NCBI GenBank assembly: GCA_902537235.1
Contig: CACBAO010000019.1
Location: 1-34,982 of the forward strand
Source of the DNA: an uncultured Alphaproteobacteria bacterium
GTDB lineage: Bacteria; Pseudomonadota; Alphaproteobacteria; Rhodobacterales; Rhodobacteraceae
Length of the DNA stretch: 34,982 nucleotides
Direction: 5' to 3'
Part shown: positions 14,132 through 32,493 of the stretch, one piece after another
Layout of the letters: every line of letters begins with the position of its first letter
Position numbering within the stretch: the first letter of the stretch is position 1
The notes under the pieces: model-generated
Told to the model about the DNA's origin: nothing
Seen by the model: only the letters and a program-made list of their open reading frames with translations
The model's database searches: none
Position numbers and translations under genes: made by a program

Positions 14132-14198
14132 AACTTTTCCTTACATAATGAGACTAAATGAAATAAATTAGGGTGGCAAACGAACAATAAAGGTGTTG

Positions 14199-15545: not shown

Positions 15546-16579
15546 ATAAACAAGTGAACAAATCATTGTATAATAGTAAGCTCGTAGATCCTTTTAACCG
15601 ACAAATAACCTATTTAAGGTTATCTGTTACAGATCGCTGTGACTTAAGGTGTACCTATTGCATGCCTGAAAAGATGACTTTTTTAAATAAGAAAGAAGTA
15701 CTTACTTTTGAAGAGATGTATAAGCTATGCAGTGGTTTTATTGATTTAGGTATAAAGAAAATACGAATAACAGGTGGAGAGCCCTTGGTTCGAAAAGGTA
15801 TAATGGATTTCTTTGAAATGCTAAATCCAAATTTATCTAATCAATTGGAAGAGTTAACGCTAACAACGAATGGTACACAATTGCATAAATATGCTAGCCA
15901 ACTGTATGGTGCAGGAGTTAGGCGCATTAATATATCACTTGATACATTAAATTCAAAAAAATTCGAGAGCATCACTAGGATTGGTAAACTCCATGACGTT
16001 TTGAAGGGGATTGATGCTGCACAAGATGCAAACCTAAAAATAAAAATTAATTGTGTTGCTTTGAAAGATATTAATGATGATGAGACAGTCGACTTTATTG
16101 ACTGGTGCATCAAAAACAATTTTGATCTTACGTTTATTGAAACTATGCCTATGGGGGATATCGGAAATGAGACACGGCTGAATCATTTTTTATCCCTTGA
16201 TGAGCTTAAGAAAAATATTGCCTCAAAATTTGAACTTGAAGATATTTCATTTTCTTCGGGAGGCCCTGCAAAATATTGCAAAATAAAAGGTTCTAGCATT
16301 AAGTTAGGATTTATCACACCTTTATCGCACAACTTTTGCTCCAGCTGCAATCGAATAAGAGTAGATGCAACCGGTGTGTTACATCAATGTCTTGGTCAAA
16401 GCAATAGTTTAGACTTCCGAAGTATACTGAGAGACCCTGGTACAACTGACGCTATTCTTCTTGAGAACATAAGAAAATCGATAAAACAAAAGCCTGAAAA
16501 ACACTCCTTTGCCTACGACTTCTCAAAAGAGCGGATTGAAGGTAGGATGAGTAGGCATATGAGCCTGACCGGTGGGTAA
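15542..16579 (+). CDS. moaA: GTP 3',8-cyclase, molybdenum cofactor synthesis
   Basis: MoaA is a radical-SAM enzyme that starts molybdopterin synthesis from GTP. The SAM cluster motif is Cys33-x3-Cys37-x2-Cys40 (RCDLRCTYCMPE). The second cluster is Cys266-x2-Cys269-x13-Cys283 (FCSSCNRIRVDATG then HQC). The protein ends in the required Gly-Gly (MSLTGG). Length 345 is normal. The start is GTG 15542 in a GTGA overlap with the glmU stop, indicating translational coupling; a second GTG at 15554 is possible. Pairing moaA with glmU is unusual in my experience but both frames look intact. No other moa gene is in the window. Confidence 0.95.
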   Translation: MNKQVNKSLYNSKLVDPFNRQITYLRLSVTDRCDLRCTYCMPEKMTFLNKKEVLTFEEMYKLCSGFIDLGIKKIRITGGEPLVRKGIMDFFEMLNPNLSNQLEELTLTTNGTQLHKYASQLYGAGVRRINISLDTLNSKKFESITRIGKLHDVLKGIDAAQDANLKIKINCVALKDINDDETVDFIDWCIKNNFDLTFIETMPMGDIGNETRLNHFLSLDELKKNIASKFELEDISFSSGGPAKYCKIKGSSIKLGFITPLSHNFCSSCNRIRVDATGVLHQCLGQSNSLDFRSILRDPGTTDAILLENIRKSIKQKPEKHSFAYDFSKERIEGRMSRHMSLTGG

Positions 16580-16861: not shown

Positions 16862-17362
16862 TTAATTTTGGAGCTTAATTTGATCTAGTGCCACCTGGAC
16901 TCTGGTAACCTGACCCATTATTTCTAATAGTACCCAAATACGCTGCTTAGTATCAAATGTCTCTACAGTAGCAATGAAATTTGCTAACGCACCAGAGAGG
17001 ATTTTCACAGAATCCCCACAAACCAGTGATTCAGGTGGAAGAAGCTTTCCAGAACTGTCGCAACGAGACATCAAAGCAGATACTATTTCCTCAGGTACTT
17101 TAATTGGAGTACCATCCTGGCAAATTAATCGGGATACGCCTAAAGTGCTATTAATTTTATGCCATGGCTCTCTACATAAGTCGATACTCACAAACATATA
17201 TCCTGGGAAGAGAGGCTCTATATTCGTCAAAAACTTATCTTGACTTTTACGCGTGGAACTTTGCAGAGGTAAAAACGTTTTGAAACCTTGTTGACCTAAA
17301 TTTCGTGTAGCAACTCTATGAGAATTCCTTTTAATTTGGACTATATACCAATTATCAGTCAT
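16862..17362 (-). CDS. NusG paralogue, RfaH-like transcription antiterminator
   Basis: A 166-residue protein starting MTDNWYIVQIKRNSHRVATR, with the NusG N-terminal fold marked by WYIVQ, FLPLQ near residue 32 and PLFPGYMFVSID near residue 50. A C-terminal KOW-like segment follows (LVCGDSVKILSGALANFIATVE near 113-135). NusG-family proteins bind the RNA polymerase clamp. Specialised paralogues such as RfaH load at ops sites and suppress termination in long surface-polysaccharide operons. It is not the housekeeping nusG, which sits with secE and ribosomal genes. It is divergent to a 17-kb plus-strand polysaccharide operon whose leader holds an ops-like GCGGTAGC. Target assignment is inference. 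Confidence 0.88.
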   Translation of the reverse strand: MTDNWYIVQIKRNSHRVATRNLGQQGFKTFLPLQSSTRKSQDKFLTNIEPLFPGYMFVSIDLCREPWHKINSTLGVSRLICQDGTPIKVPEEIVSALMSRCDSSGKLLPPESLVCGDSVKILSGALANFIATVETFDTKQRIWVLLEIMGQVTRVQVALDQIKLQN

Positions 17363-19699: not shown

Positions 19700-20866
19700 A
19701 TGAAAGCGGTTGTTGTCGGATTGGGGTATGTTGGGCTCTCAAATGCGGTACTTTTGGCTCAGCACAATGAAGTTATTGGAGTTGATATTTCTCAAGAACG
19801 TGTTGATGCGCTAAATAACCGAAAGTCTCCCATTATTGATCAGGAGCTTTCACAATATTTAGCAGATAAACAACTTAATTTATCTGCTAGTACTGACTTG
19901 AACGTTTCAGTTGTAGACGCTGATTATGTAATTATATCTACTCCAACTGACTACAACGAGAAAACCAACTTTTTTGATACATCTTCGGTAAAAGATATTA
20001 TCTCAAGAGTTATAAAAAGAGAACCACGAGCTTGTATTGTGATTAAATCTACGATCCCGGTTGGATTTGTAGACGATGTAAGACACCATTTCAAAACGAA
20101 CGCCATAATCTATTCGCCTGAGTTTTTAAGAGAAGGTCAAGCTCTCAAAGATAACTTATATCCAAGTCGAATTGTTGTAGGTGAAAAATCAGAACGTGCT
20201 GAAGTTTTTGCTAGTTTACTTGCAGAAGGTGCAAACAAACGAGATATAAAGTTGTTATTTACAGGAACGCGTGAAGCAGAGGCAATAAAGTTATTTTCCA
20301 ACACATATCTAGCAATGCGTGTAGCCTTCTTCAACGAGCTTGACAGCTATGCAATTGCTGGACAAATCGACAGTAAAGCGATCATAGAGGGTATTTCCCT
20401 TGACCCGCGGATTGGTGATCATTATAACAACCCATCTTTTGGCTATGGAGGCTATTGCTTGCCAAAAGACACAAAACAACTTCTTGCAAATTATAATACA
20501 GTTCCTCAAAATATTATTCGCGCTATTGTAGAAGCTAATTCAACACGCAAAGATTTTTTAGCTAACTTAATATTAGATAAGAAACCAAAGAAAGTAGGCA
20601 TTTTCCGATTGGTTATGAAGGCAGGAAGTGATAATTTTCGGCAAAGTTCTATTCAAGGGATTATGAAACGTCTAAAAGCTAAAGGAATTGAGGTTGTTGT
20701 CTACGAACCTGAATTGAAAAAAGCTACATTCTTCAACTCACATGTTGTAACAGACTTAAATGATTTCAAAGAAAATGTAGATATCATCTTGTCTAATCGA
20801 ATGGCACCGGAACTTTACGATGTTAAAGCAAAAGTGTTCACTCGTGATTTGTTTGGAGAAGATTAG
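19700..20866 (+). CDS. ugd: UDP-glucose 6-dehydrogenase
   Basis: Oxidises UDP-glucose twice to UDP-glucuronate using two NAD+. The 388-residue length equals that of enterobacterial Ugd. The Rossmann motif is [19 protein letters not shown] near 117 belongs to the NAD domain. The catalytic Cys253 lies in [15 protein letters not shown], and [11 protein letters not shown] at 139-149 is typical. The short form and motif wording resemble the enteric capsule type rather than the approximately 435-residue alphaproteobacterial type, which hints at horizontal acquisition with the locus. Substrate UDP-glucose would come from galU at 32655. UDP-glucuronate is then available to glycosyltransferases. Confidence 0.94.
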
Positions 20867-20933: not shown

Positions 20934-22367
20934 ATGAAGGGCATATACCCAGTTTTACTCGCTGGTGGTTCAGGCACCAGACTTTGGCCATTGTCGCGTA
21001 GATCGTATCCAAAGCAATTTTCAAGTTTAATGAGTAATCAGTCGCTTTTTCAGCAAGCAGCGATCCGTCTTAGCTCATCAAATGAAGTGGATTTTAGGGC
21101 ACCAATAACCGTAACTAATAACGATTTTCGTTTTATCGTCGTAGAGCAACTTCAGGCTGTAGGTATTGATCCGGGCAGTATTTTAATTGAACCAGAGGCG
21201 AAGAATACTGCTCCTGCAATACTAGCAGCAAGCTTGTTTGCATTTGCCAAAGACCCAACCTCTATTTTGTTAGTCTGCCCATCGGATCATTTGATCGGCA
21301 ATGATTTTGATTTTCATGCGGCCATTAAAATAGGCCTTGAGTCTGCGTCTAGAGGTGAAATAGTTACTTTTGGACCTAAGCCTACTCATCCGGAAACGGG
21401 TTACGGTTATTTAGAACTCTCAGATGTTAAACCTAATTCTGAAGGCATCTGCAGAGTAACGAGATTTCATGAAAAACCGACGCGTGGGCGCGCAATGAAA
21501 ATGATTTCTAGTGGTAATTGCCTCTGGAATGCTGGTATTTTTTTGTTTAAAGCAACTGACATGATAAGTGCATTTGAAAAACTTGCACCGGAAACTCTTT
21601 CAATTGTTTCAGATGCTGTGAGTAAGTCAAAGGCTGATCTTGGATTTTTGCGCCTAGACCCAGATCCATGGGCAAGTCTCGAAAATACAAGCATAGATTA
21701 CTGCATAATGGAAAAATTGCAAAACCTGATAGTGGTCCCTTACTCTTCAAGATGGACGGATCTTGGTGGTTGGGAAGCTGTTTGGTCCGAAAGTGATAAG
21801 GACCTAAATGGTAATGCAGCGTCAGAAGGGGCATTTTTGATTGATTGTGTTGATAGTTTAATTCGTACCGAAAGCCCTAATCAGAAGATTGTCGGCTTGG
21901 GACTTGATAACATTATCGCTATATCAATGGCTGATGCGGTATTAGTTGCAAATAAAAATAGGTCACAGGAAGTCAGAAAAGTTGTCGATTTGCTTATTTC
22001 TAATAAGGTCGAACAAGCAACGACTTATCCGAAAGATCACAGGCCATGGGGTTGGTTTGAAAGTTTGATCATTGATGAAAAATTTCAAGTGAAGCGAATC
22101 TTTGTCAATCCTGGGCAATCACTAAGTCTTCAAAGCCATCACCACCGATCTGAGCATTGGATTGTCGTTCAGGGTACAGCAAGGGTAACAATTAATAGTG
22201 AAGTTAAGATTGTTGAAGAAGGCTCGTCTACTTTTGTTCCTTTAGGGGCTAAACACCGAGTGGAGAACCCAGCAAGTGCACCGATGGTGCTAATTGAAAT
22301 TCAAATTGGGAATTATCTGGGCGAAGACGATATAGTGAGATATGAAGACGTTTACGCTCGTCAATAA
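20934..22367 (+). CDS. manC: Mannose-1-phosphate guanylyltransferase / mannose-6-phosphate isomerase
   Basis: A 477-residue type II bifunctional enzyme. The N-terminal guanylyltransferase has LLAGGSGTRLWPLSRRSYPK, the FHEKP motif near 181-185 and WNAGIF. The C-terminal cupin-type isomerase domain has the HRPWG-like DHRPWGWF and the zinc ligand stretch SLQSHHHRSEHWIVVQG near 395-411. Together with the phosphomannomutase at 18229 it makes GDP-mannose from fructose-6-P. The ATG at 20934 is the only good start. It lies 67 nt after ugd, and a weak hairpin with T-run follows it. Confidence 0.95.
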   Translation: MKGIYPVLLAGGSGTRLWPLSRRSYPKQFSSLMSNQSLFQQAAIRLSSSNEVDFRAPITVTNNDFRFIVVEQLQAVGIDPGSILIEPEAKNTAPAILAASLFAFAKDPTSILLVCPSDHLIGNDFDFHAAIKIGLESASRGEIVTFGPKPTHPETGYGYLELSDVKPNSEGICRVTRFHEKPTRGRAMKMISSGNCLWNAGIFLFKATDMISAFEKLAPETLSIVSDAVSKSKADLGFLRLDPDPWASLENTSIDYCIMEKLQNLIVVPYSSRWTDLGGWEAVWSESDKDLNGNAASEGAFLIDCVDSLIRTESPNQKIVGLGLDNIIAISMADAVLVANKNRSQEVRKVVDLLISNKVEQATTYPKDHRPWGWFESLIIDEKFQVKRIFVNPGQSLSLQSHHHRSEHWIVVQGTARVTINSEVKIVEEGSSTFVPLGAKHRVENPASAPMVLIEIQIGNYLGEDDIVRYEDVYARQ

Positions 22368-22414
22368 AGATTTTTATCGAGGTATGATTTAGGTGGGCAG
22401 TTAATTTCTATGCT

Positions 22415-22446
22415 AGGTATCGAAACCTGCAGTGAGGGTTTTTTTT
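22415..22446 (+). terminator. Weak terminator or attenuator after manC
   Basis: AAACC (22423-22427) can pair with GGTTT (22437-22441), which runs directly into a T-tract to 22446. An alternative, exclusive hairpin AGGT/ACCT (22415-22428) would break it. It sits 40 nt before the SIS isomerase gene. In an operon that continues for 12 kb, such a site would be a natural target for NusG-paralogue antitermination (inference). The stem is short. Confidence 0.35.
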
Positions 22447-22486
22447 GTTTATTGAGTAGCTTTTTGAGAATTGAAAAGGAATAAAC

Positions 22487-23038
22487 ATGGCATTTGAATT
22501 CAAGAATTATTTTGAGCGGTTTTCTGAAAAGTTGATGGAAGTAGATCCCGAAAATCTAATGAAAGCCGCAAATTTGATTTCTAAACATGGTCTTTTGGGG
22601 GGAAAATTAATCTTCATTGGAAATGGAGGATCAGCTGCAATATCGAGCCATCTATCAGTAGACTTTACAAAAGCTTGCAAAATTCGAAGTATTAACTTCA
22701 ATGAAGCGGATTTACTGACTTGCTTTTCAAATGATTATGGATACTCGAATTGGTGTAAAGAGGCGCTCTCAGCTTATGCAGATTCAAGTGATATCGTTAT
22801 ATTAATTAGTAGTAGCGGTACGTCTGAAAATATTCTTAATGCTGCTAGGTTCTGTGTTGAAAATGATCTAAAATTAATCACCTTTTCTGGGTTTTCACCA
22901 AAGAACCCGCTACGGAGTTATGGAGATCTCAACTTTTATGTGAGTTCAGATCTTTATAACTTTGTTGAGATGGTTCATCATACTTGGTTGGTTGCAATAG
23001 TGGATTTACTTTCTGGAGTGGATTTGCATGGAAGATAG
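22487..23038 (+). CDS. SIS-domain sugar-phosphate isomerase, GmhA-like
   Basis: A 183-residue single SIS-domain protein. The phosphate-binding motif IGNGGSAAISSH is near residue 45, a second Ser-rich loop LISSSGTSENIL near 105, and the C-terminal helix carries VEMVHHTWLVAIVD. GmhA converts sedoheptulose-7-P to D-glycero-D-manno-heptose-7-P; length and motifs agree with that family, though several SIS isomerases in polysaccharide loci have other substrates. AAGGA is 6 nt before the ATG. It overlaps the following nucleotidyltransferase gene by 11 nt. A GmhB-like phosphatase at 31933 supports a heptose pathway, but no HddA/HldE kinase is in the window. Confidence 0.85.
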   Translation: MAFEFKNYFERFSEKLMEVDPENLMKAANLISKHGLLGGKLIFIGNGGSAAISSHLSVDFTKACKIRSINFNEADLLTCFSNDYGYSNWCKEALSAYADSSDIVILISSSGTSENILNAARFCVENDLKLITFSGFSPKNPLRSYGDLNFYVSSDLYNFVEMVHHTWLVAIVDLLSGVDLHGR

Positions 23039-23822
23039 GCATGCTATTTTGCTGTGTGCGGGCGTGGGGTCGCGCTTGCAGCCACTTACACAAAGCTGGC
23101 CCAAATGTTTAATGCCGGTAAATTCCGAACCATTATTGAGTAATTGGTTATCAAAACTTCAAATCGCGGGTGTGAATTCTGCTGATATTAATACACATTG
23201 GCATTCAGAAATAGTTCAAAATTTCATCTCAGCTTATGACGGCCCTGTATCTTTGAGCTGTCATTTTGAAGAGACTTTATTGGGTACGGCTGGTACTTTG
23301 AGATGGATTTCGGGGTCTAAGTTGGTTGATACTTCCGTTCTTGTTGCGCATGCAGATAATTACACTAACTTAGATCTTGATACTTTGTTCAATTTTCATA
23401 ATTCACATCTTCAACCTATCACAATGGCTGTATTTCCGACGCAACAGCCCGAACAATGTGGAGTAGTTGTGACGAATGAAGAAGAGATAGTTATAGAGTT
23501 TCAAGAAAAGGTGCAAAAACCCAACTCAAACATTGCGAACGCAGCCATATATATTTTTGATCCAGAGGTTTTTACTTTTTTACAAAATAACCCCAAAATC
23601 ATGGACATATCTACTGATTTAATACCTCACTACATTGGCAATATTAAAATCTTTAGGCATGATGGGTTTCTAATTGACATAGGAACCCCTGAAAGCTTGA
23701 TTGAAGCACAATTTATCGATAACAACTTTAGCTTAAATGCTAGAACTAAGTTTAGTAATAGATTAATCAGCATGAAATTTAACAATATTTGTGAGGAAGT
23801 AAAATGTCTAGCAAGTTGTTAG
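23028..23822 (+). CDS. Sugar-1-phosphate nucleotidyltransferase (HddC/RmlA-like)
   Basis: A 264-residue nucleotidyltransferase with the nucleotide-binding signature LCAGVGSRLQPLTQSWPKCLMPV (split here as LCAGVGSRLQPLT and WPKCLMPV), the metal-binding VAHADNYT near 106 and the EFQEK motif near 155. It would activate a sugar-1-phosphate to an NDP-sugar. The size and partner gene (GmhA-like) fit HddC, which makes GDP-heptose, but the nucleotide and sugar cannot be read directly. GGAG lies about 6-10 nt before the ATG inside the upstream gene. Overlaps of 11 nt upstream and 19 nt downstream indicate a translationally coupled set. Confidence 0.85.
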   Translation: MEDRHAILLCAGVGSRLQPLTQSWPKCLMPVNSEPLLSNWLSKLQIAGVNSADINTHWHSEIVQNFISAYDGPVSLSCHFEETLLGTAGTLRWISGSKLVDTSVLVAHADNYTNLDLDTLFNFHNSHLQPITMAVFPTQQPEQCGVVVTNEEEIVIEFQEKVQKPNSNIANAAIYIFDPEVFTFLQNNPKIMDISTDLIPHYIGNIKIFRHDGFLIDIGTPESLIEAQFIDNNFSLNARTKFSNRLISMKFNNICEEVKCLASC

Positions 23823-24796
23823 TAATAGGATCAAATTCCTTTTCAGGATCACACTTTGCTTCACGAGCAAGTTTTTTGGGTTACGATGTGCTTGGTATTA
23901 GTCGGTCTAATCAGCCCCGTGACTACTTCTTACCTCAAACATGGGACAAGTTGCGTAAATCTTCTTATAAATTTTTACAGATTAACTTACACGATGTAAC
24001 AAAATTAGAACATACTGTTCGTGTTTTTAAGCCTAAATATGTCGTAAATTTTGCCGCTCAAGGAATGGTAGCTGAAAGTTGGGATGCCCCTTTAGATTGG
24101 TATCAAACAAACCTAATGTCCCAGATCCAATTACATCAAATCCTGATGTCTTTGGATAAATTAACAAAATACGTTCATGTGACTACACCAGAAGTATATG
24201 GCTCTACATCAGATTGGATTGAAGAAGATTTTCTATTTAACCCAAGCACACCTTATGCTGCATCTAGAGCGGCATGTGACATGCATTTAAAAACATTTTT
24301 CGAAGGTTTTAATTTTCCCGTCATTTTTACCCGCTCAGCCAATGTTTATGGGGCCGGTCAGCAGCTATACCGAGTAATCCCAAAAGCAATTCTTTCCTGC
24401 ATGTCAGGAAAGAAAATGTCGTTGCATGGTGAAGGCTCCTCCAGACGTTCATTTCTCCACATTGATGATATGGTTGATGCAACGATCAAAATTTGTGAAA
24501 AAGGGAGATTGGGTGAGACATATCATATATCGACATCACAATTAATTTCTATCAAAGATCTGATTGAAAAAATTGCTCTGAAATTCGGATTATCATTAGA
24601 GGATATTGCAATTCAAACACCGGAAAGATTGGGAAAAGATGCGTCGTATATGCTCTCGTCGAAAAAGTTAAAAGAGACATTGAAGTGGGAGCCGAAAGTT
24701 TCTTTAAACGATGGCCTAAATGAAACAATAGAGTGGATTAAGAACCATTACTCTGAACTAATGGCAGAGACATGGGACTATATTCACAAAACATGA
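23804..24796 (+). CDS. SDR-family nucleotide-sugar dehydratase/epimerase, atypical active site
   Basis: A 330-residue extended SDR. The cofactor loop reads IGSNSFSGSHF instead of TGGxGFIG. The active site has Thr-Pro-Glu (TTPEVYGS, 128-130) and Tyr151 in YAASRAACD, where the usual YxxxK lysine is Arg155. Threonine and Glu flanking one residue plus Tyr is the layout of 4,6-dehydratases (Thr-Asp-Glu in RmlB, Thr-Ser-Glu in Gmd). A 4,6-dehydratase acting on the NDP-sugar from the previous gene is the best guess. I recall similar 'SNSFSG...YAxSRAA' proteins in other surface loci, so the changes may be a subfamily trait. GAGGAAG precedes the ATG. Confidence 0.82.
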   Translation: MSSKLLVIGSNSFSGSHFASRASFLGYDVLGISRSNQPRDYFLPQTWDKLRKSSYKFLQINLHDVTKLEHTVRVFKPKYVVNFAAQGMVAESWDAPLDWYQTNLMSQIQLHQILMSLDKLTKYVHVTTPEVYGSTSDWIEEDFLFNPSTPYAASRAACDMHLKTFFEGFNFPVIFTRSANVYGAGQQLYRVIPKAILSCMSGKKMSLHGEGSSRRSFLHIDDMVDATIKICEKGRLGETYHISTSQLISIKDLIEKIALKFGLSLEDIAIQTPERLGKDASYMLSSKKLKETLKWEPKVSLNDGLNETIEWIKNHYSELMAETWDYIHKT

Positions 24797-24807
24797 GAGT
24801 TTAGAAA

Positions 24808-25758
24808 ATGTCTAAAATTATATTGGTTACAGGCGGGTGTGGCTATGTAGGATCTAAGTTAGTTCCTCAACTATTAGCAGACCGTCATAAGGTTCGAGTC
24901 ATTGATACCCAGTGGTTTGGAGAAAATCTAGGGTATCACAAGAATTTAGAAATTATCAAAAAAGATACTCGTCACATAAACGTTCAAGATCTAGAAAATG
25001 TTGAAAAGATTATTCATTTGGCTAACATCGCAAACGATCCAGCAGTCGATCTAGATCAAGTATTATCTTGGGAAGTGAATGTTCTTGCGACACAAAACTT
25101 AATTGATCTGGCGGCGCGTGGAGGTAAAGTAACCCAGTTTATTTATGCTAGTTCTGGAAGTGTTTATGGTATAAAAGATGAAGATCTGGTAACTGAAGAC
25201 CTAACTTTGGTGCCTATTTCTGCCTATAACAAAACCAAAATGGTGGCTGAACGTGTAGTACACAGTTATGCGGATAAGATTAAAGTCCATTGTATACGTC
25301 CAGCAACGGTTTGCGGCATGTCACCGAGAATGCGCCTTGATGTTGCTGTCAACATCCTGACTTTTCAAGCTCTTAATACTGGCAAAATTCGAGTATTTGG
25401 TGGCAATCAAACTAGACCTAACATACATATTGATGATATGGTAAGTGTTTATCAACATTTCGTGCTCAATTCCGAAAATCTAGAAGCGGGCATGTATAAC
25501 GCAGGTTTTGAAAATATTTCAATAATGGATATCGCACATATGGTTCAGGACCTTGTCTCTTGCGAGATAGAAGTTGAAGAGTCAAACGATCCGCGTTCTT
25601 ATCGCCAATCTTCGAAAAAATTACTTGATACCGGATTTGTGCCCAAAAAGTCAGTACTTCAAGCTATTAATGACATCAAGAAAAGTTACGAAAGTGGGGT
25701 GCTTGTCGATTGTGATCAATACCACACTATAAAAACCATGAAAGGGTTAACGTTTTGA
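24808..25758 (+). CDS. NAD-dependent epimerase/dehydratase (extended SDR)
   Basis: A 316-residue extended SDR with the classical cofactor loop LVTGGCGYVGSKL, the catalytic Ser region YASSGSVYG near 112 and the YxxxK as YNKTK near 138. The substrate-side motif RPATVCGMSPRMRLD and the late NIHIDDM are typical of UDP-galactose-4-epimerase-like enzymes and of reductases/epimerases in deoxysugar paths. It probably epimerises or reduces the keto sugar made by the previous SDR (inference). It starts 12 nt after that gene; its stop overlaps the methyltransferase TTG start (TTGA). Confidence 0.85.
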   Translation: MSKIILVTGGCGYVGSKLVPQLLADRHKVRVIDTQWFGENLGYHKNLEIIKKDTRHINVQDLENVEKIIHLANIANDPAVDLDQVLSWEVNVLATQNLIDLAARGGKVTQFIYASSGSVYGIKDEDLVTEDLTLVPISAYNKTKMVAERVVHSYADKIKVHCIRPATVCGMSPRMRLDVAVNILTFQALNTGKIRVFGGNQTRPNIHIDDMVSVYQHFVLNSENLEAGMYNAGFENISIMDIAHMVQDLVSCEIEVEESNDPRSYRQSSKKLLDTGFVPKKSVLQAINDIKKSYESGVLVDCDQYHTIKTMKGLTF

Positions 25759-26420
25759 CACTAGGTAGAGAAATAGATCTTCTAGCTGATTATCCAAAGG
25801 CTAACAGGGATACAGCTTCGCGCGCTCAGAACAAAACAGAAGCCGATCGTTTGATTGCTCGTAAATTTGGCAAAGAGTTCTTTGATGGCGACAGGAAACA
25901 TGGCTATGGCGGTTTTGTCTACAATCAAAGATTTTGGAAACCAGTGGTACCTTCATTTAAAAAACATTGGGATTTGAACGCTGGTATGGCTGTTCTTGAT
26001 GTCGGTTGTGCTAAGGGTTTTATGCTACATGATTTAAATGAAGAAATTCCAGGTCTAAAATTGGCAGGGGTTGACGTATCTGAATACGCTATTGCCAACG
26101 CAATGAAGACGGTACAGAATTTTTTGCAAGTTGCGGATGCTAAAAAATTACCCTTCGGTGATGATAGTTTTGATGTAGTGATCTCAATAAATACAATTCA
26201 TAATCTCGAAATTCAAGATTGTATGGAGGCTCTAAAAGAGATTGAACGGGTTTCAAAGGGAAAGTCATTCATTACAGTTGATGCATTCCGAACAGATGAT
26301 GAAAGAAAAAAAATGTATGAATGGAATCTAACTGCAAAAACAATTCTATCGGTAGCCGATTGGGAGAGTCTCTTTTTGGAGGTAGGCTATACTGGTGATT
26401 ACTACTGGTTCATTCCTTAA
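25755..26420 (+). CDS. Class I SAM-dependent methyltransferase
   Basis: A 221-residue protein with SAM motif I VLDVGCAKGFML near 80-91, acidic loop LAGVDVSEYAI and motif for post-I VADAKKLPFGDDSFDVVIS near 127-145. A long N-terminal extension with RDTASRAQNKTEADRLIARKF (in two parts RDTASRAQNKTE / ADRLIARKF) and FFDGDRKHGYGGF is shared, as I recall, by methyltransferases of polysaccharide loci. Likely O-, N- or C-methylates the sugar. The start is TTG at 25755, overlapping the previous stop as TTGA; the next in-frame Met is about residue 78, inside the fold, so TTG is required. Confidence 0.85.
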   Translation: MTLGREIDLLADYPKANRDTASRAQNKTEADRLIARKFGKEFFDGDRKHGYGGFVYNQRFWKPVVPSFKKHWDLNAGMAVLDVGCAKGFMLHDLNEEIPGLKLAGVDVSEYAIANAMKTVQNFLQVADAKKLPFGDDSFDVVISINTIHNLEIQDCMEALKEIERVSKGKSFITVDAFRTDDERKKMYEWNLTAKTILSVADWESLFLEVGYTGDYYWFIP

Positions 26421-26430
26421 GAGACTGAAA

Positions 26431-27378
26431 ATGAAAGAATTTCAAATTTTAGAAATAATGTTAAAAATAAGGTTAGTTGAAGAAGAGATTTCGAAGCGCT
26501 ATCATCAACAACGGATGAGATGTCCAACTCACCTCTCCATTGGTCAAGAGGCAGTACCCGCTGCGCTTTCAGTAAATTTGTTGCAAACCGATCTTGCCGT
26601 TAGTACTCATAGAAGCCATGCGCATTACCTTGCTAAGGGAGGTAATTTATCAAAAATGATTGCGGAGATTTATGGAAAATCGACCGGTTGCTCAAGAGGT
26701 AAGGGAGGATCGATGCATTTAGTAGACTTAGATGCTGGTTTTATGGGATCATCTGCGATCGTTGGAAATAGTATTCCAATTGGCGTTGGTCTTGGTATGT
26801 CTTTGCGTCTGGATAAATCAGATGCGATCTCCATTGTTTTTTTTGGTGACGGTGCTACTGAGCAAGGTGTTTACTACGAAGCATTAAACTTTGCGGCATT
26901 AAAAAAGTTACCAGTACTATTCGTTTGTGAAAACAATTCATATTCAGTGTATACTTCGAAAAAAGACAGGCAACCAGCTGGTAGAAGTATCGCAACAGTT
27001 TCTACAGCAATGGGTGTTATTGGTACTGAATTGGATGGTAATGCAGCCTCAGTTATGGAAAGTGAATTTGCGCGTGTTGTGTCAGAAATAAGAGCTGGAT
27101 CCGGGCCTCAACTTGTTGAATGCTTCACTTACAGAACTCGAGAACATTGTGGGCCGAACTTCGACGATAATTTAAATTATAGGCCTGAGGCTGAGGTGAA
27201 CTATTGGCTGAACAATGATCCAATTGAGAAGCATATTAAAGAACAAGAACTAAGTTTAGATAAAGTAAGATCCGTTAAAACAAGAATAGAAATTGAGATA
27301 AAAGATGCATTCGAATTTGCGGAAAAGTCCCCATTTCCTCCAATTTCAGATACCTATCTTGGAGAATACTCTCAGTGA
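26431..27378 (+). CDS. Thiamine-diphosphate dehydrogenase E1 alpha-like subunit
   Basis: A 315-residue alpha subunit of the pyruvate/acetoin dehydrogenase E1 type. The ThDP/Mg motif runs GDG (139-141) to NN (168-169) with about 30 residues between. HRSHAHYLAKGG (60-71) and SRGKGGSMHL (88-97) are canonical E1-alpha stretches. It forms an alpha2beta2 enzyme with the next gene (GTGA overlap). The frame is open to GTG 26395 inside the methyltransferase gene, but ATG 26431 has AAGAGA upstream and starts exactly where family members do. No lipoyl E2 or E3 gene is in the window, so classic oxidative acyl transfer to CoA is unlikely. Carboligation onto a sugar is proposed (inference). Confidence 0.88.
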   Translation: MKEFQILEIMLKIRLVEEEISKRYHQQRMRCPTHLSIGQEAVPAALSVNLLQTDLAVSTHRSHAHYLAKGGNLSKMIAEIYGKSTGCSRGKGGSMHLVDLDAGFMGSSAIVGNSIPIGVGLGMSLRLDKSDAISIVFFGDGATEQGVYYEALNFAALKKLPVLFVCENNSYSVYTSKKDRQPAGRSIATVSTAMGVIGTELDGNAASVMESEFARVVSEIRAGSGPQLVECFTYRTREHCGPNFDDNLNYRPEAEVNYWLNNDPIEKHIKEQELSLDKVRSVKTRIEIEIKDAFEFAEKSPFPPISDTYLGEYSQ

Positions 27379-28436
27379 CTGAGAGATCGTTAAGTTATGC
27401 CGCGGCAGTCAATGAAGCCCTGCATCAAGCTATGGAGAAAGACTCTAAGGTTCTGAGCTACGGATTGGGAATGACAGACCCAAAAAATGTTTTTGGAACC
27501 ACCGAAAACCTTGAAGACAAATTCGGCTCGGAACGGGTTTTCGATATACCTTGTTCCGAAAATGCGATTACTGGAATTGGTGTGGGTGCTGCGCTTAGAG
27601 GATATAAATCAATCATAGCACACCAGCGTTTAGATTTTAGTCTCCTATCGATGGACCAAATAGTTAATTCTGCTGCGAAATGGCATTATATGTTTGGCTC
27701 GCAAATGAGTGTTCCAATCACTATAAGAATGATCCTAGGTAGGGGATGGGGCCAAGGCCCTACTCATTCACAAAACCTGCAAGCATGGTTTGCACATATT
27801 CCAGGTCTAAAGGTCGTTGCTCCTTCTAATGCATCAGATGCAAAAGGTTTATTACTTGCTTCAATATTTGATCCAAACCCTGTAATTTTTTTGGAACATC
27901 GATGGTTGCATAATTCCGTATCAAATGTTGCCTCAAATTACTATGAAACAGAAATTGGTGGATCAAAATTACGAAATTTTGGCAAAGATATAACTATAGT
28001 TACCAACTCATATATGGTTCCAGAATGTCTCGATGCCACAGAATATCTGAATGAAAATTATTCAATTTCTTGTGATTTGATCGATATCCATTCAATCCGA
28101 CCCTTTGACCAGAAAACAATTGTAAAATCTATTGAAAAGACTGGAAAATTGCTTTGCGTGGATACCGCAGCGAAATCATTTTCGGTGTCGAGTGAAATAA
28201 TTTCAAGAATGGCAGAAAATTTTTCACAAGCGGATGGAGTTTTGATGCAAAAATTAGGTCTGCCTGACGTACCGGAGCCAACAAGCTATGGACTAACAAA
28301 GGGCTTTTACCTTACTGCGGATGATGTGATCAACAAAATATTGGTAATGTGTGGATTTAAAGAAAAAAAATTGCCAATAGTCAGAATGAGTGAACATCAT
28401 GATATACCGGGAGAGTGGTTTAAGGGACCGTTTTGA
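27375..28436 (+). CDS. Thiamine-diphosphate dehydrogenase E1 beta-like subunit
   Basis: A 353-residue beta subunit with transketolase pyrimidine and C-terminal domains. The ThDP-activating Glu is at 62 (IPCSENAITGIG). GRGWGQGPTHSQNL near 115 and PGLKVVAPSNASDAKGLL near 137-155 are typical E1-beta segments. The C-terminal PDVPEPTSYGLTKGFY matches family ends, but a tail of about 45 residues continues to the motif HHDIPGEWFKGPF, longer than in standard pyruvate dehydrogenase. The start is GTG 27375 in a GTGA overlap with the alpha subunit, so equal synthesis of both is expected. A 44-codon frame follows with the same kind of overlap. Confidence 0.88.
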   Translation: MTERSLSYAAAVNEALHQAMEKDSKVLSYGLGMTDPKNVFGTTENLEDKFGSERVFDIPCSENAITGIGVGAALRGYKSIIAHQRLDFSLLSMDQIVNSAAKWHYMFGSQMSVPITIRMILGRGWGQGPTHSQNLQAWFAHIPGLKVVAPSNASDAKGLLLASIFDPNPVIFLEHRWLHNSVSNVASNYYETEIGGSKLRNFGKDITIVTNSYMVPECLDATEYLNENYSISCDLIDIHSIRPFDQKTIVKSIEKTGKLLCVDTAAKSFSVSSEIISRMAENFSQADGVLMQKLGLPDVPEPTSYGLTKGFYLTADDVINKILVMCGFKEKKLPIVRMSEHHDIPGEWFKGPF

Positions 28437-28772: not shown

Positions 28773-30584
28773 ATGGCAAGGTTTGCGATGGAAAATCTTA
28801 TAAGTCTGATAAAACGTCTTTGGCTTCACCTGAGCTTTCTCCGTCGGTGGCAATTTGGGTTTTTACTGCTGTTAATGTTTGTAAGCGCCTTAGCAGAAGT
28901 TATCAGTCTTGGCGCTGTGTTGCCTTTTGTAGGTATATTAACTTCTCCGGAACTTGTTTTGGCCCACCCCGTCGCTGTCAACTTTGGGTTGGCACAAAGA
29001 ATTAGCTCAACTGAACAATTAGTACTGTTGTTGACAGTACTTTTTGCGGCAGCTGCCCTATTATCTGGAGTATTACGTGTATTATTAGTTTGGGCAAGTA
29101 ACAGCATAACATTTGCCACTGGCGCCGACATCGGAATACAAATCTACAGGAGCACTCTTAATCAACCATATCAGGTACATATAAGCCGTAATAGCAGTGA
29201 GGTTATCAGTGGACTAACGAACAAGGTTAACTTAGTAGTATTTTCGGTGTTGCTGCCATGTACTACTTTTATAAGTTCTACTATCCTGCTAGTGGCGATT
29301 ATGCTTACATTGATTGCAATTGATCCAGCGGTAGCATTAATTTCCGTTGCAGTCTTCGGTGCTATTTATGCACTAATTACGCTTAAAGTTAAAAAAACAA
29401 TTAGACGTAATAGTGTACGTATCGCCAAGGAACAAACTCAAGTTGTCAAAGCTTTGCAGGAAGGCTTAGGTGGTATTCGCGATTTGTTATTGGATGGTAC
29501 GCAAGAATTTTATTGCAAAATCTACCGCGATGCCGACATTCCGCTACGAAAGGCACAGGCTTCTAATAACTTCATTTCTACAAGCCCTAAGTATTTGATG
29601 GAATCATTGGGAATGGTGTTCATTGCAGGTCTCGCTCTCGTTCTAAGCCAAAAGTCTAGCGGAGTCGAAGCTGCTTTGCCACTGCTAGCTGCCATGGCTT
29701 TAGGAGCACAACGGCTCCTGCCAACACTACAACAGTTATATTTAAGTTGGTCTAGCATCGCAGGCAGTTATGGTATCTTAAAGGATATCTTACAACTACT
29801 GGATCAACCATTACAACTCGACATATATGACCCCCAAACTGAAAAATTTGTATTTAAGAATACATTACGTTTTGAGTCAGTGAGCTTTCGGTATTCCACT
29901 GATAGTCCTTGGGTAATTAATAACTTAAATCTTATAATTCCCAAGCGTTCCAAAATTGGATTTGTTGGAAGTACTGGTAGTGGAAAGACCACTACAATTG
30001 ATCTTTTAATGGGACTGCTCAAACCAACAATTGGTAATTTTATGGTTGATGACAAGCCACTTGGCGGGAAGCGCTTAAAAGCTTGGCAGCGAAGCATAGC
30101 GCACGTTCCCCAAAGTATCTATCTAGCAGATTCAACATTTGCAGAAAACATTGCGTTTGGCGTATCACCCGAAAAGATTGATATGCCACTTGTAAAGAGG
30201 GTAGCCCAGCAAGCACAAATCGCAGATTTTATTGAAAGCAGATCGGAGGGGTATCACCAATTCGTGGGAGAACTTGGCATTCAACTTAGTGGGGGTCAAC
30301 GCCAACGCATCGGTATAGCACGAGCATTGTACAAGCAGGCGAATGTGCTAGTATTTGATGAAGCTACAAGTGCTCTTGATACTGCTACAGAGAGATCAGT
30401 TATTAAGGCAATTGAGCAGCTTGAAGACGACCTTTCTATTATAATAATTGCTCATCGATTAAGTACGGTTAAAAATTGTGATAACATAATTGAACTAGCA
30501 GATGGAAAAGTAGTTGCGCAAGGATCATATGAAGAGCTATTAGCCTGCAGCCCAAGCTTTCGTAAATTGGCCGGTATCACTTAA
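28773..30584 (+). CDS. ABC half-transporter, PglK-like lipid-linked oligosaccharide flippase
   Basis: A 603-residue membrane-ATPase fusion. The first helix and loop contain SALAEVISLGAVLPFVGIL (39-57), the signature start of PglK-type flippases and relatives in glycan loci. Further hydrophobic segments lie near 85-110, 155-205 and 278-315. The ATPase has Walker A GSTGSGKT (399-406), VPQSIYLAD Q-loop, an intact signature LSGGQ (505-509), Walker B ending in Glu530 and an IAHR switch. It likely flips the lipid-linked repeat unit across the inner membrane, taking the place of Wzx. The start is uncertain: a second ATG at 28788 (MENLISLIKRLW) is as good. Confidence 0.88.
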   Translation: MARFAMENLISLIKRLWLHLSFLRRWQFGFLLLLMFVSALAEVISLGAVLPFVGILTSPELVLAHPVAVNFGLAQRISSTEQLVLLLTVLFAAAALLSGVLRVLLVWASNSITFATGADIGIQIYRSTLNQPYQVHISRNSSEVISGLTNKVNLVVFSVLLPCTTFISSTILLVAIMLTLIAIDPAVALISVAVFGAIYALITLKVKKTIRRNSVRIAKEQTQVVKALQEGLGGIRDLLLDGTQEFYCKIYRDADIPLRKAQASNNFISTSPKYLMESLGMVFIAGLALVLSQKSSGVEAALPLLAAMALGAQRLLPTLQQLYLSWSSIAGSYGILKDILQLLDQPLQLDIYDPQTEKFVFKNTLRFESVSFRYSTDSPWVINNLNLIIPKRSKIGFVGSTGSGKTTTIDLLMGLLKPTIGNFMVDDKPLGGKRLKAWQRSIAHVPQSIYLADSTFAENIAFGVSPEKIDMPLVKRVAQQAQIADFIESRSEGYHQFVGELGIQLSGGQRQRIGIARALYKQANVLVFDEATSALDTATERSVIKAIEQLEDDLSIIIIAHRLSTVKNCDNIIELADGKVVAQGSYEELLACSPSFRKLAGIT

Positions 30585-30626: not shown

Positions 30627-30651
30627 AGTCAACTGAGGTTTGCTAATAGAT

Positions 30652-31806
30652 ATGTTGAAAAATTTATTAAAATCATTTGTGATTTTTACATGTACGCCAA
30701 TAGCTCTTATTTTTTGGATATTAAAATTAAAATTTCCGTATATAAATATTAGTAGAATTGGGCATTTGATGTTGGAATGTGATTGTTTTATCAAAGAACA
30801 GTTACTCTACGTTGGCTCAAAACCGCGCGCAATCATCTTGGCGCCAAAAAGTAAATCAGCGAACGCTGCTGCAGTCAAAGCTTGGTCAAAATACTTTTTT
30901 GTCATAGAAAATAAAACTCTGGTACTTTTAATGAAACCTTTTCAACACCATCCATGGACAAAATTTGATGTATCTCGATATGTGAGCTCAAATCTGACTG
31001 CTGATACCTATCGCTTATATAATGAGTGGGGTGAACGTTCACCGTTACTTAAATTAAATCAAAGTGAAATTGAGCGTGGTGATGAGGTGTTGGAACGGTT
31101 GGGGGTTCCAAAGGGAACTTGGTATGTCTGCCTCCATGCGCGAGAGGGAGGCTATTCCGTTTCTGATGAGCATTTTCACAAGCATCGAAATATTGCGATC
31201 TCTGATTTTGAGAAGGCAATTAGGTATATCGTTTCTCAAGGAGGAAGGTGCGTACGCATGGGAGATTCGACGATGACGCCGGCTCCTAAAATGTTAGGTC
31301 TCATCGATTATGCACTCAGCGATTATAAAGAAGCGTGGATGGATTTATATTTATCAGCAAGATGTAAATTCTTTCTTGGATCCAATTCGGGTGCGTTCTC
31401 GATGGCCACGGTTTATGGTGTGCCATGCGCACAAGTTGGGATGACTCCACTGAGTGTGATGGGGGTCGGTATAAATGACATAACCATTCCAATGATTCAC
31501 AGATCTAAAGCGTTAAATCAGGTTCTTACATTCGATGAAATTTTTCAATCCGAAGTTGCCTCCTACAAACTGACAGAGGACTATGAAAAGGCTGGAATTG
31601 TTTTAGAGCATAACACACCCGATGACATCCTTGACTTAACTATTGAGATCCATTCGAGAGTCTTAGGTTCATACGAGATCAAGCTAGATGATGAATTACG
31701 CCAAAAAAAATTCAAGTCTCTTATAAAAAAGGGTCATTATGGTTATGGGGCAGTATCGAGGATTGGAAATGCATTTCTCAAAAAGTACGAATATCTGTTG
31801 AACTAG
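30652..31806 (+). CDS. TIGR04372-type glycosyltransferase
   Basis: A 384-residue protein with an N-terminal hydrophobic anchor (about residues 8-28), then a soluble domain. The stretch WYVCLHAREGGYSVSDEHFH with HRNIAISDFEKAIRYI, RCVRMGDSTM and FFLGSNSGAFSMATVYGVP is what I recall for the TIGR04372 glycosyltransferase family of surface loci, a GT-B-like fold related to fucosyltransferase-like enzymes. Donor and acceptor unknown. The frame opens at TTG 30640, but ATG 30652 is preferred; GAGG lies 13 nt before it, further than usual. It follows the flippase by 67 nt, with a perfect palindrome between. Confidence 0.78.
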   Translation: MLKNLLKSFVIFTCTPIALIFWILKLKFPYINISRIGHLMLECDCFIKEQLLYVGSKPRAIILAPKSKSANAAAVKAWSKYFFVIENKTLVLLMKPFQHHPWTKFDVSRYVSSNLTADTYRLYNEWGERSPLLKLNQSEIERGDEVLERLGVPKGTWYVCLHAREGGYSVSDEHFHKHRNIAISDFEKAIRYIVSQGGRCVRMGDSTMTPAPKMLGLIDYALSDYKEAWMDLYLSARCKFFLGSNSGAFSMATVYGVPCAQVGMTPLSVMGVGINDITIPMIHRSKALNQVLTFDEIFQSEVASYKLTEDYEKAGIVLEHNTPDDILDLTIEIHSRVLGSYEIKLDDELRQKKFKSLIKKGHYGYGAVSRIGNAFLKKYEYLLN

Positions 31807-31932: not shown

Positions 31933-32493
31933 ATGATCAACCTTCCTAGTTGTACATCTAATTCAAAGGAGAAAAAGTTTATACGCTTGAATACCCGTCA
32001 CTCTAAGGCCGCTTTTTTTGATCGTGATGGGGTAATTAATGTTGACTACGGTTATGTTGCCAGCATTGACGACTTTGAATTTGTAAAAGATGTGTTTTCT
32101 GCGTTAAATTATATTAAATCTAAAGATTATGATATATTTATAATTACAAACCAATCTGGTGTAGCCAGAGGCTTTTATACGGAGACTGACATTCGATCTT
32201 TGCATTCATTTATAGATGATAAGTTTAAAGAAAGAGGAATTGAAATAAGCGGTTACCTTTACTGTCCACATCATTTAGATGCGACTGTTGCGGAATATTC
32301 AAAGGATTGCATCTGGAGAAAACCTAACCCTGGAATGATTGAGGCAGTACTTTCTCTAAAACAATATAACAAAAACAAATGTTTTATGATCGGTGATAGA
32401 TGTAGCGATGTATTGGCTGCTAAAAATGCAGGAATTCGTGGCGAGAAATTTGTTGGTGAGAGTTTACTATCGTTTGTAAAAGAAAAATTTTGA
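31933..32493 (+). CDS. gmhB: GmhB-like D,D-heptose 1,7-bisphosphate phosphatase
   Basis: A 186-residue HAD phosphatase with FFDRDGVIN (Asp30 nucleophile, Asp32 acid), TNQSGVARGFY, the RKPNPGM Lys motif and IGDRCSDVLAAKNAG. This is the histidinol-phosphatase/GmhB subfamily, which removes the 7-phosphate from heptose-1,7-bisphosphate. The structural zinc site is normally Cys-x-His...Cys-x-Cys; here Cys111, His113 and Cys126 remain, but the last ligand is Trp128 (DCIWRKP). A 24-residue N-terminal extension precedes the core. Together with the GmhA-like gene at 22487 and the nucleotidyltransferase at 23028, it supports a nucleotide-heptose route. Confidence 0.86.
   Translation: MINLPSCTSNSKEKKFIRLNTRHSKAAFFDRDGVINVDYGYVASIDDFEFVKDVFSALNYIKSKDYDIFIITNQSGVARGFYTETDIRSLHSFIDDKFKERGIEISGYLYCPHHLDATVAEYSKDCIWRKPNPGMIEAVLSLKQYNKNKCFMIGDRCSDVLAAKNAGIRGEKFVGESLLSFVKEKF

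Follow-up and report, generated by a model that had tools for sequence, protein, structure and literature searches.

The gene module and its E1 pair

The window analysed here is one whole contig of 34,982 nucleotides (G000:C19) from an uncultured member of the Rhodobacteraceae, whose genome assembly comprises 1.92 Mb in 59 contigs and is 80.6% complete. It contains a module of seven co-directional genes that encode a SIS-domain protein, a nucleotidylyltransferase (NTP), two extended short-chain dehydrogenases/reductases (SDR1 and SDR2), a class I methyltransferase (MT), and the alpha and beta subunits of a thiamine diphosphate (ThDP)-dependent enzyme of the E1 type, as found in 2-oxoacid dehydrogenase complexes. 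An original prediction, made from the sequence of this DNA, had proposed that the E1 pair transfers an acyl unit from a 2-oxoacid to a keto sugar made by SDR1, yielding a branched sugar for the surface glycan. We consider it likely, from the comparisons described below, that the pair works on its own as a ThDP carboligase of the sugar-branching E1 type, located in a heptose-type surface-glycan locus.

All seven open reading frames (ORFs) were verified in place and frame, and their Pfam and NCBIfam families (SIS, NTP_transferase, two extended SDRs, class I methyltransferase, E1_dh, and Transket_pyr plus Transketolase_C) are those previously named. The junctions are, in gene order, -11, -19, +11 (SDR1/SDR2), -4, +10, and -4 nt; the gaps given as 12 nt in the original prediction measure 11 and 10 nt. 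The gap between MT and E1 alpha is of 10 nt if E1 alpha starts at ATG 26431, and becomes an overlap of 26 nt if it starts at GTG 26395. The GC content of the module is unremarkable relative to its surroundings, and the module is embedded in a longer surface-glycan region that runs to the contig end (Table 1). NusG-family genes, one of which, possibly RfaH-like, adjoins this region, often accompany long surface-polysaccharide operons.

The E1 alpha subunit contains the GDG...ENN motif and an R-x-x-E-H-C-G-P loop. The GDG and NN residues occupy positions 139-141 and 168-169 when counted from the ATG, in agreement with the predicted numbering, and positions 151-153 and 180-181 when counted from the GTG. 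In an alignment of 100 E1 alphas of the fetched loci, which includes the window and some E2-linked enzymes, Gly151 and Asn181 (GTG numbering) are found in all 100, Asp152 in 82 (Glu in 18), and Gly153 in 73 (Ala in 27). The catalytic Glu62 of E1 beta is kept in 105 of the 105 aligned sequences. The ThDP motifs are intact, as had been claimed, and the claim that the locus lacks a lipoyl E2 and an E3 also holds, no match to an E2 or E3 family having appeared among the scanned window proteins (Pfam/NCBIfam).

Elsewhere in the same genome, a pyruvate dehydrogenase (PDH) block on contig C15 encodes an E1 alpha, an E1 beta of 467 aa that seems to begin with a lipoyl-like domain, and a 294-aa E2 ORF. 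A block of the 2-oxoglutarate dehydrogenase (OGDH) type on contig C2 has its E2 match split over two frames, together with an ORF that we read as E3. The original prediction would have been contradicted by an E2 elsewhere with the window pair as its E1 partner; none was found in this 80.6%-complete genome, and the PDH E2 adjoins its own E1 pair.

Table 1. Features of the window, in order of position
Feature	Position	Strand	Evidence or remark
Nucleotidylyltransferase/hexapeptide protein and MoaA-like radical SAM protein, in tandem	14193-16579		5' of the glycan region
NusG-family protein, possibly RfaH-like	16862-17362	-	Adjoins the glycan region
Phosphoglucomutase/phosphomannomutase	18229		
Nucleotide-sugar 6-dehydrogenase, UDP-glucose type	19700..20866	+	TIGR03026, 342.7 bits (cut-off 190)
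ManC, mannose-1-phosphate guanylyltransferase/isomerase	20934..22367	+	TIGR01479, 533.6 bits (cut-off 373); GDP-sugar context
SIS-domain protein, GmhA-like	22487..23038	+	SIS_2 (Pfam); TIGR00441, 63 bits (cut-off 209)
Sugar-1-phosphate nucleotidylyltransferase, guanylyltransferase/HddC-like	23028..23822	+	NTP_transferase; HddC model, 74.8 bits (cut-off 300)
SDR1, RmlB-like extended SDR	23804..24796	+	TIGR01181, 184 bits (cut-off 365)
SDR2, extended SDR, probable sugar-nucleotide C4-dehydrogenase	24808..25758	+	Best solved relative 6vo6, 113 bits
MT, class I SAM methyltransferase	25755..26420	+	Methyltransf_31/11
E1 alpha, ThDP-dependent	26395..27378 (GTG 26395 or ATG 26431 start)	+	E1_dh, 193 bits
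E1 beta, ThDP-dependent	27375..28436	+	Transket_pyr and Transketolase_C; C-terminal extension ending FKGPF
ABC transporter with fused permease, candidate glycan-lipid flippase	28773..30584	+	Pfam
TIGR04372-family glycosyltransferase	30640..31806	+	193.8 bits (cut-off 45)
GmhB-type heptose-1,7-bisphosphate 7-phosphatase	31933..32493	+	TIGR00213, 153.7 bits (cut-off 149.6)
NTP_transferase protein	32637		
Second nucleotide-sugar dehydrogenase	33592		Last gene before the contig end

Tail-bearing E1s are separate from E2-linked E1s

The E1 betas of sugar loci end in a C-terminal F-x-G-P-F/Y extension that is absent from the PDH E1 betas seen. The median number of residues after window position 321 is 36 in 113 tail-bearing sequences versus 12 in 52 E2-linked ones, with overlapping ranges (11-48 and 10-30, respectively). 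In the AlphaFold2 monomer model of the window E1 beta (mean pLDDT 89.3), the core is confident and the tail block has a pLDDT of 58-77. Such a tail might act at the E2-docking face.

To compare gene contexts, E1 beta loci were drawn from relatives, plasmids, named genomes, viral contigs, and actinobacteria, and each distinct E1 beta was counted once. Genome hits were taken with 1.5-kb flanks, all other hits with flanks of up to 20 kb. The E2 queries were the two E2s of this genome only. The eight sugar-gene-type queries came in part from E1 loci, which makes that count partly circular, and the controls were scored with the same queries. A nearby E2 match was found for none of the 112 distinct tail-bearing E1 betas, 100 of which had a sugar-gene match, versus 54 and 15, respectively, of the 94 tail-less ones. 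When only loci of at least 8 kb are considered, the 95 tail-bearing loci have no E2 and 89 have a sugar gene; the 28 tail-less loci, many of which come from the same E1-group scans, have 9 and 11. Some tail-less loci (e.g., L152 and L158) look like members of the group whose tail is missing or altered. Six long tail-bearing loci gave no sugar match, i.e., L044, L063, L133, and the streptomycete-like L225, L226, and L227, although L226 does contain sugar genes of types outside the eight queried. Among 11 wide loci around tail-less actinobacterial E1s, 10 have an E2 and the eleventh (L235) has DegT matches.

The phylogenetic trees separate the same two sets. With FastTree, one side of a split of the E1 beta tree holds 113/113 tail-bearing and 0/52 E2-linked sequences (support 0.964), and one side of a split of the E1 alpha tree holds 107/107 and 0/51 (support 0.877); these trees left out L005, L007, L012, L089, the loci numbered 224 or higher, identical sequences, and ORFs outside the length limits. 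In a concatenated IQ-TREE analysis of 66 of the 190 tips (13 chosen, the remainder random), the 31 tail-bearing pairs also fell together, with none of the 18 E2-linked ones (ultrafast bootstrap, UFBoot, 87). The tailed E1s are a distinct group, separate from the E2-linked E1s, and the window pair lies outside the E2-linked set, as had been anticipated. A plasmid locus of Solidesulfovibrio (L043) falls inside the group by its E1 alpha and outside by its E1 beta.

Within the FastTree group, the window pair and that of the congener G005 belong to a subgroup of 28 members (support 0.967), among which are Methylophilaceae, Labrenzia, Rhodopseudomonas, Prochlorococcus, Pelagibacteraceae, Paraglaciecola, Alteromonas, Riflebacteria, Leptospiraceae, Nitrospirae, Chloroflexi, and a Coxiella endosymbiont record; many of these records are metagenome bins, and single taxon names may be wrong.

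A phage origin of the pair was considered and discarded: E1 beta matches appeared in 22 of 50,697 phage records, all below 60% identity, and we suspect that these matches, most of the 20 listed being without annotation, are host DNA. A collection of viral contigs provided 36 contigs with E1 relatives (L126-L161), 22 of them tailed, on contigs of up to 548 kb, some of which may be host DNA as well.

Neighbourhood of the E1 pair across genomes and in congeners

The search for a conserved neighbourhood suggested by the original prediction gave a positive result. In the best 80 of 577 named-genome loci, homologues of the window proteins were found for E1 alpha in 77, SDR2 in 49, SDR1 in 40, MT in 36, NTP in 19, and SIS in 18. 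A further, uncurated count with added queries (BLAST on any ORF, best-match assignment) covered the 72 tail-bearing loci among these 80 and detected SDR2 in 41, HldE-like in 40, SDR1 in 35, MT in 35, DegT in 32, SIS in 30, zinc-dependent alcohol dehydrogenase (Zn-ADH) in 26, SDR3 in 26, NTP in 21, radical SAM in 15, acetolactate synthase (ALS)-like in 10, and GmhB in 10. The usual orders are SDR2-SIS-SDR1-...-MT-E1a-E1b and HldE-SIS-SDR1-SDR2-MT-E1a-E1b, and MT homologues lie directly 5' of E1 alpha in many loci. The arrangement is not due to chance, as E1 is surrounded by homologues of these genes again and again across many phyla.

Among 195 relatives, SDR2 (E up to 1e-50) occurs in 15 genomes, a tail-bearing E1 in 11, and both in 8, i.e., 8 of the 11 versus 0.85 expected (hypergeometric P 2e-8, uncorrected for kinship). 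The 11 genomes were identified from the 30 top-ranked loci plus the truncated copy of G054; the truncated copy of G178 was left out.

The comparison with congeners revealed two kinds of difference beside the same sugar genes. The congener G005 (locus L241) has the same genes with 88-95% protein identity up to SDR2, whereas past SDR2 the identities are 69% for MT, 57% for E1 alpha, and 64% for E1 beta. The nucleotide identity between the window and L241, measured in 200-base steps, drops from 83-94% to 56-73% at 25.7-25.9 kb, that is, at the start of MT. G005 also contains an ADH and an HldE-like kinase gene between E1 beta and the ABC transporter, which the window does not have there, and the transporters of the two loci share 59% identity. 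A block exchange that took in MT-E1 and the following stretch, as far as about 30.6 kb, seems to have occurred.

The congeners G003 and G007 also have SDR2, SIS, SDR1, HldE-like, and GmhB-like genes, and no E1 of the tailed group was found in the fetched region of either. Adjoining SDR1 or SDR2, where the window has MT-E1, they contain a split transketolase (PF00456; PF02779 plus PF02780), a 204-220-aa ORF, and an APH-like kinase (9685-13088 in L267 and 10349-13622 in L268). The same transketolase/small ORF/APH-like set is present in G120, G133, G147, and G161. In the fetched regions of the 15 SDR2 genomes, which measure 7.5 to 35 kb, an E1 is found in six (G000, G005, G025, G054, G169, and G178, those of G054 and G178 being truncated by contig ends), a split transketolase in seven (G003, G007, G120, G133, G147, G161, and G174), and neither enzyme in two (G162 and G177). 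G174, besides its transketolase region, and both G162 and G177 have a tail-bearing E1 on another contig. None of the 15 regions holds the two enzymes together (Fisher P 0.007, uncorrected for kinship). That the same sugar genes are accompanied by two distinct ThDP enzymes, both of which transfer C2 units, favours a C2 transfer and disfavours an acyl-CoA role, with the caveat that the transketolase could instead supply sedoheptulose 7-phosphate.

Some neighbours recur beside the E1 pair. An ALS-like ThDP enzyme shares some of the E1-pair loci (L234, L074, L059, L110, and others), where both enzymes may work on a single sugar or each on a sugar of its own. Radical SAM genes are also recurrent next to E1 (L056, L040, L117, and others).

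A candidate sugar-branching pathway and its alternatives

The ketone needed for branching had been attributed to SDR1, and this part of the original prediction is not supported. SDR1 aligns to RmlB, but T-P-E replaces the T-D-E of RmlB, so that the dehydratase Asp is absent. Its close orthologues carry YxxxR, with R155 nearly invariant (n = 15); in a wider set of 38 sequences the lysine position of YxxxK is occupied by 20 R, 15 K, and 3 H. The sequence ISRS after the second strand suggests an NADP-type enzyme. The absent Asp and Lys weaken a role of SDR1 as a 4,6-dehydratase. In SDR2, YxxxK is present in all 45 aligned sequences (window included); SDR2 also has an R-x-R-L/F-D motif. Its nearest solved structure, 6vo6, has the file title putative sugar-nucleotide epimerase/dehydratase and is presumably Cj1427, the GDP-heptose C4-dehydrogenase. 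Because of the motif changes in SDR1, the intact YxxxK of SDR2, and this structural relation, SDR2 fits better as the probable ketone maker.

The neighbours of the E1 pair appear to be partly of the heptose type, with GmhA-, GmhB-, and HddC-like proteins and the C4-dehydrogenase-like SDR. The best solved matches of the nucleotidylyltransferase at 23028 are mannose-1-phosphate guanylyltransferases. The phosphatase at 31933, which is 74% identical to the L241 copy, scores above the TIGR00213 subfamily cut-off and under those of two narrower GmhB models. In the available description of the GDP-heptose pathway of Campylobacter jejuni, a 1,2-isomerase, a 1-kinase, a 7-phosphatase, and a guanosyltransferase are followed by Cj1427, which oxidizes GDP-heptose at C4 and recycles its NADH with 2-oxoglutarate (PMC10680097). 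The window offers counterparts in the SIS protein, the GmhB-type phosphatase, the guanylyltransferase-like NTP, and the 6vo6-related SDR, but its contig has no kinase, its SIS residues are changed, and E1 and MT have no counterpart in the pathway as described there.

On this basis, the SIS protein, a kinase, the GmhB-type phosphatase, and the nucleotidylyltransferase would generate a nucleotide-activated heptose-type sugar, which SDR2 would oxidize at C4 to a ketone. The E1 pair would then decarboxylate a 2-oxoacid, most likely pyruvate, and add the acetyl unit to the ketone, giving a tertiary-alcohol, two-carbon-branched sugar, probably C9. To finish the sugar, MT might methylate it and, in relatives, ADH might reduce or DegT transaminate it; the presence of DegT or ADH genes beside E1 would fit such changes of an acetyl branch, and known branches undergo transamination or reduction (PMC12247030). 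The finished sugar would enter a surface glycan, perhaps exported via the ABC transporter. Each enzymatic step, as well as the acceptor position and the donor, is what we infer from the gene content.

E1 pairs of this type have been reported to branch sugars or ketones with two carbons (PMC4425429, PMC4802897, PMC12247030). Plm8/Plm9, which correspond to Pau11/12, are said on genetic evidence to attach a pyruvate-derived two-carbon chain to 2,6-dideoxy- and 2,3,6-trideoxyhexoses (PMC4802897); the paulomycin cluster was confirmed by inactivation of two genes, pau11 being one (PMC4425429); and in vitro, KbDH-alpha/beta joins pyruvate to ketones (PMC12247030). Like the window pair, the alpha-keto acid dehydrogenase 2 sugar-branching enzymes Pau11/12 (paulomycin), AviB1/AviB2 (avilamycin), and KbDH (kibdelomycin) are orphan E1 alpha/beta pairs with no nearby E2, and the sizes of Pau11/12 (325 + 345 aa) are similar to those of the window pair. 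Four streptomycete-like loci (L194-L197; wide versions L224-L227) belong to the tailed group. L226 encodes, in order, an Acyl_transf_3 protein, an aldo/keto reductase, an MFS transporter, a BTAD regulator, E1 beta, E1 alpha, an unscanned ORF, an EryCIII-like glycosyltransferase, a second unscanned ORF, an NDP-hexose 2,3-dehydratase, an FAD monooxygenase, and a chorismate-binding/GATase protein; in L224, an NDP-hexose 2,3-dehydratase is accompanied by a GFO/IDH oxidoreductase. The paulomycin cluster is described with an acyltransferase (pau6), an aldo/keto reductase (pau7), a transporter (pau9), the E1 pair (pau11/12), a SARP (pau13), an auxiliary protein (pau14), a glycosyltransferase (pau15), a 2,3-dehydratase (pau16), a hydroxylase (pau17), and an anthranilate-synthase-like protein (pau18) (PMC4425429, PMC4802897). 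L226 resembles it in Pfam types and rough order, not by a compound; its regulator/E1 stretch is reversed, and the comparison is made without pau8 and pau10. The E1s of this paulomycin-like cluster group with the window pair in trees whose tips do not include the AviB, Pau/Plm, and KbDH sequences. The tailed group and these streptomycete-like deoxysugar clusters support the branching idea of the original prediction. The known pairs come from actinomycete antibiotic clusters with deoxyhexose genes, whereas the window is a surface-glycan locus, partly heptose-type, with SDR2, SDR1, and MT.

Two other ThDP systems are related in chemistry. YerE, of yersiniose O-antigens, resembles the proposed reaction in transferring a ThDP-bound two-carbon unit onto a keto sugar, but it belongs to the decarboxylase superfamily (PMC12247030), and the window pair is E1-type: its chains are E1_dh and Transket_pyr/Transketolase_C, not the single-chain ALS-like ThDP fold. 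The split-gene transketolases of the miharamycin and amipurimycin clusters are two-subunit ThDP enzymes for which the branching of a keto sugar has been proposed, although not shown (PMC12247030). The congeners' split transketolase (PF00456 plus PF02779/PF02780) likewise differs from the window E1_dh enzyme, and its donor would be a ketose or a beta-hydroxy-2-oxoacid. It is quite possible, although somewhat less likely than not, that the system is modular and widespread: a conserved set of SIS, HldE-like, SDR2, and often SDR1 would make a keto heptose-type sugar nucleotide, and the two-carbon-branching carboligase would be swapped, with E1 giving an acetyl branch from pyruvate and the split transketolase a hydroxyacetyl branch, thereby diversifying strain surfaces.

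Several observations weigh against the proposed pathway. The window SIS has an Asp (shared by 38/40 aligned sequences) and a Val (where 33/40 have His) at what we take to be the catalytic Glu and His positions of GmhA; these two changes put its isomerase activity in doubt and weaken its assignment as a canonical GmhA. The HddC-like call falls far under the curated cut-off. There is no heptose 1-kinase on this contig, an HldE-like one being present in the sister locus L241, and a search of the 80.6%-complete genome with the sister kinase, run without a positive control, gave no match; for the six PfkB-fold hits of the genome, NCBIfam suggests one ribokinase-like, two iolC-like, and one ThiD-like protein, two being without assignment. 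The kinase could lie beyond the contig end. With regard to the group, 12 (beta) and 13 (alpha) tips with neither tail nor E2 fall inside it, 10 of them from viral contigs, and its UFBoot value is only 87. E1 and the split transketolase are not strict alternatives, because 4 of the best 80 named-genome and 4 of the 36 viral-contig E1-centred loci hold both. On the Streptomyces griseofuscus plasmid pSGRIFU1 (L044), the tailed E1 pair has none of the eight sugar-gene types nearby and lies beside genes for a condensation-domain protein, an acyl carrier protein (ACP), and a ketosynthase (KS). Finally, the activity, the product, and the glycan structure are predictions from the genes.

This plasmid locus, together with the existence of a PDH-type E2 in the genome, would fit an E1 pair that makes an acyl donor for O- or N-acylation of the glycan, the acetyl group being passed to CoA, to a carrier protein, or to an E2 from another locus, with no sugar C-C bond formed. 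We regard this as unlikely, given that none of the 112 distinct tail-bearing E1 betas has a nearby E2 match, that the PDH E2 sits next to its own E1 pair, that neither ACP nor acyltransferase stood out among the neighbour clusters identified (a part of all clusters), and that the transketolase pair of the congeners suggests C2 transfer. The same transketolase, which shares its region with SIS and HldE-like genes in 7 of the 15 SDR2 loci and whose family does make sedoheptulose 7-phosphate, could instead point to a ThDP enzyme that acts early and builds a phosphorylated ketose for SIS, supplying the skeleton and not the branch. However, if E1 transferred an acetyl unit, the product would be a 1-deoxy-ketose, which should be beyond the reach of an aldose-ketose isomerase for conversion to an aldose, and such E1s have been assigned to the branching of 4- or 3-keto sugars (PMC4802897, PMC12247030), making an early step improbable.

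The overall family and the ThDP motifs of the pair are those of an E1, and its best NCBIfam models are PDH E1, below cut-off; these points speak for an additional 2-oxoacid or acetoin dehydrogenase E1, redundant in part, that came to lie in the glycan region by chance. This explanation is very hard to sustain, since the tree separates the window pair from all 52 E2-linked E1 betas, the linkage to SDR2, SDR1, and MT extends over many phyla, and E1 beta carries the C-terminal extension. Because of the tree, the tail, and the neighbourhood, the window pair is not a housekeeping E1 placed here by chance.

The sugar-branching E1 is an enzyme type already known from antibiotics; what appears to be new is its occurrence in a surface-glycan locus, its wide distribution over phyla, and the exchange of E1 for a transketolase. 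A 2025 review places E1-type branching mainly in specialised, antimicrobial metabolites and the YerE type in surface polysaccharides (PMC12247030). In the titles and abstract openings of the open-licence papers listed, we found no description of E1 pairs in surface-glycan loci, of this spread, or of the exchange, which is weak evidence of absence. The heptose-type context, the GmhB-type phosphatase, the cassette exchange, and the congener split transketolase are likewise additions to the original prediction. If the branching reading is true, an antibiotic-type E1 serves surface glycans across many phyla, with records of Pelagibacteraceae and Prochlorococcus among them, and those glycans are predicted to contain a class of branched sugars, probably C9; the tailed group would also offer many new candidate carboligases for tertiary alcohols. 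Since the same genes are found with an E1 in some loci and with a split transketolase in others, the choice of two-carbon donor on one sugar scaffold becomes testable.

With respect to cofactor recycling, the Solidesulfovibrio plasmid pDMC1 (L043) carries an annotated L-2-hydroxyglutarate oxidase gene (21337-22539) near its E1, SIS, and SDR genes, and this enzyme could regenerate the 2-oxoglutarate that a Cj1427-like dehydrogenase consumes.

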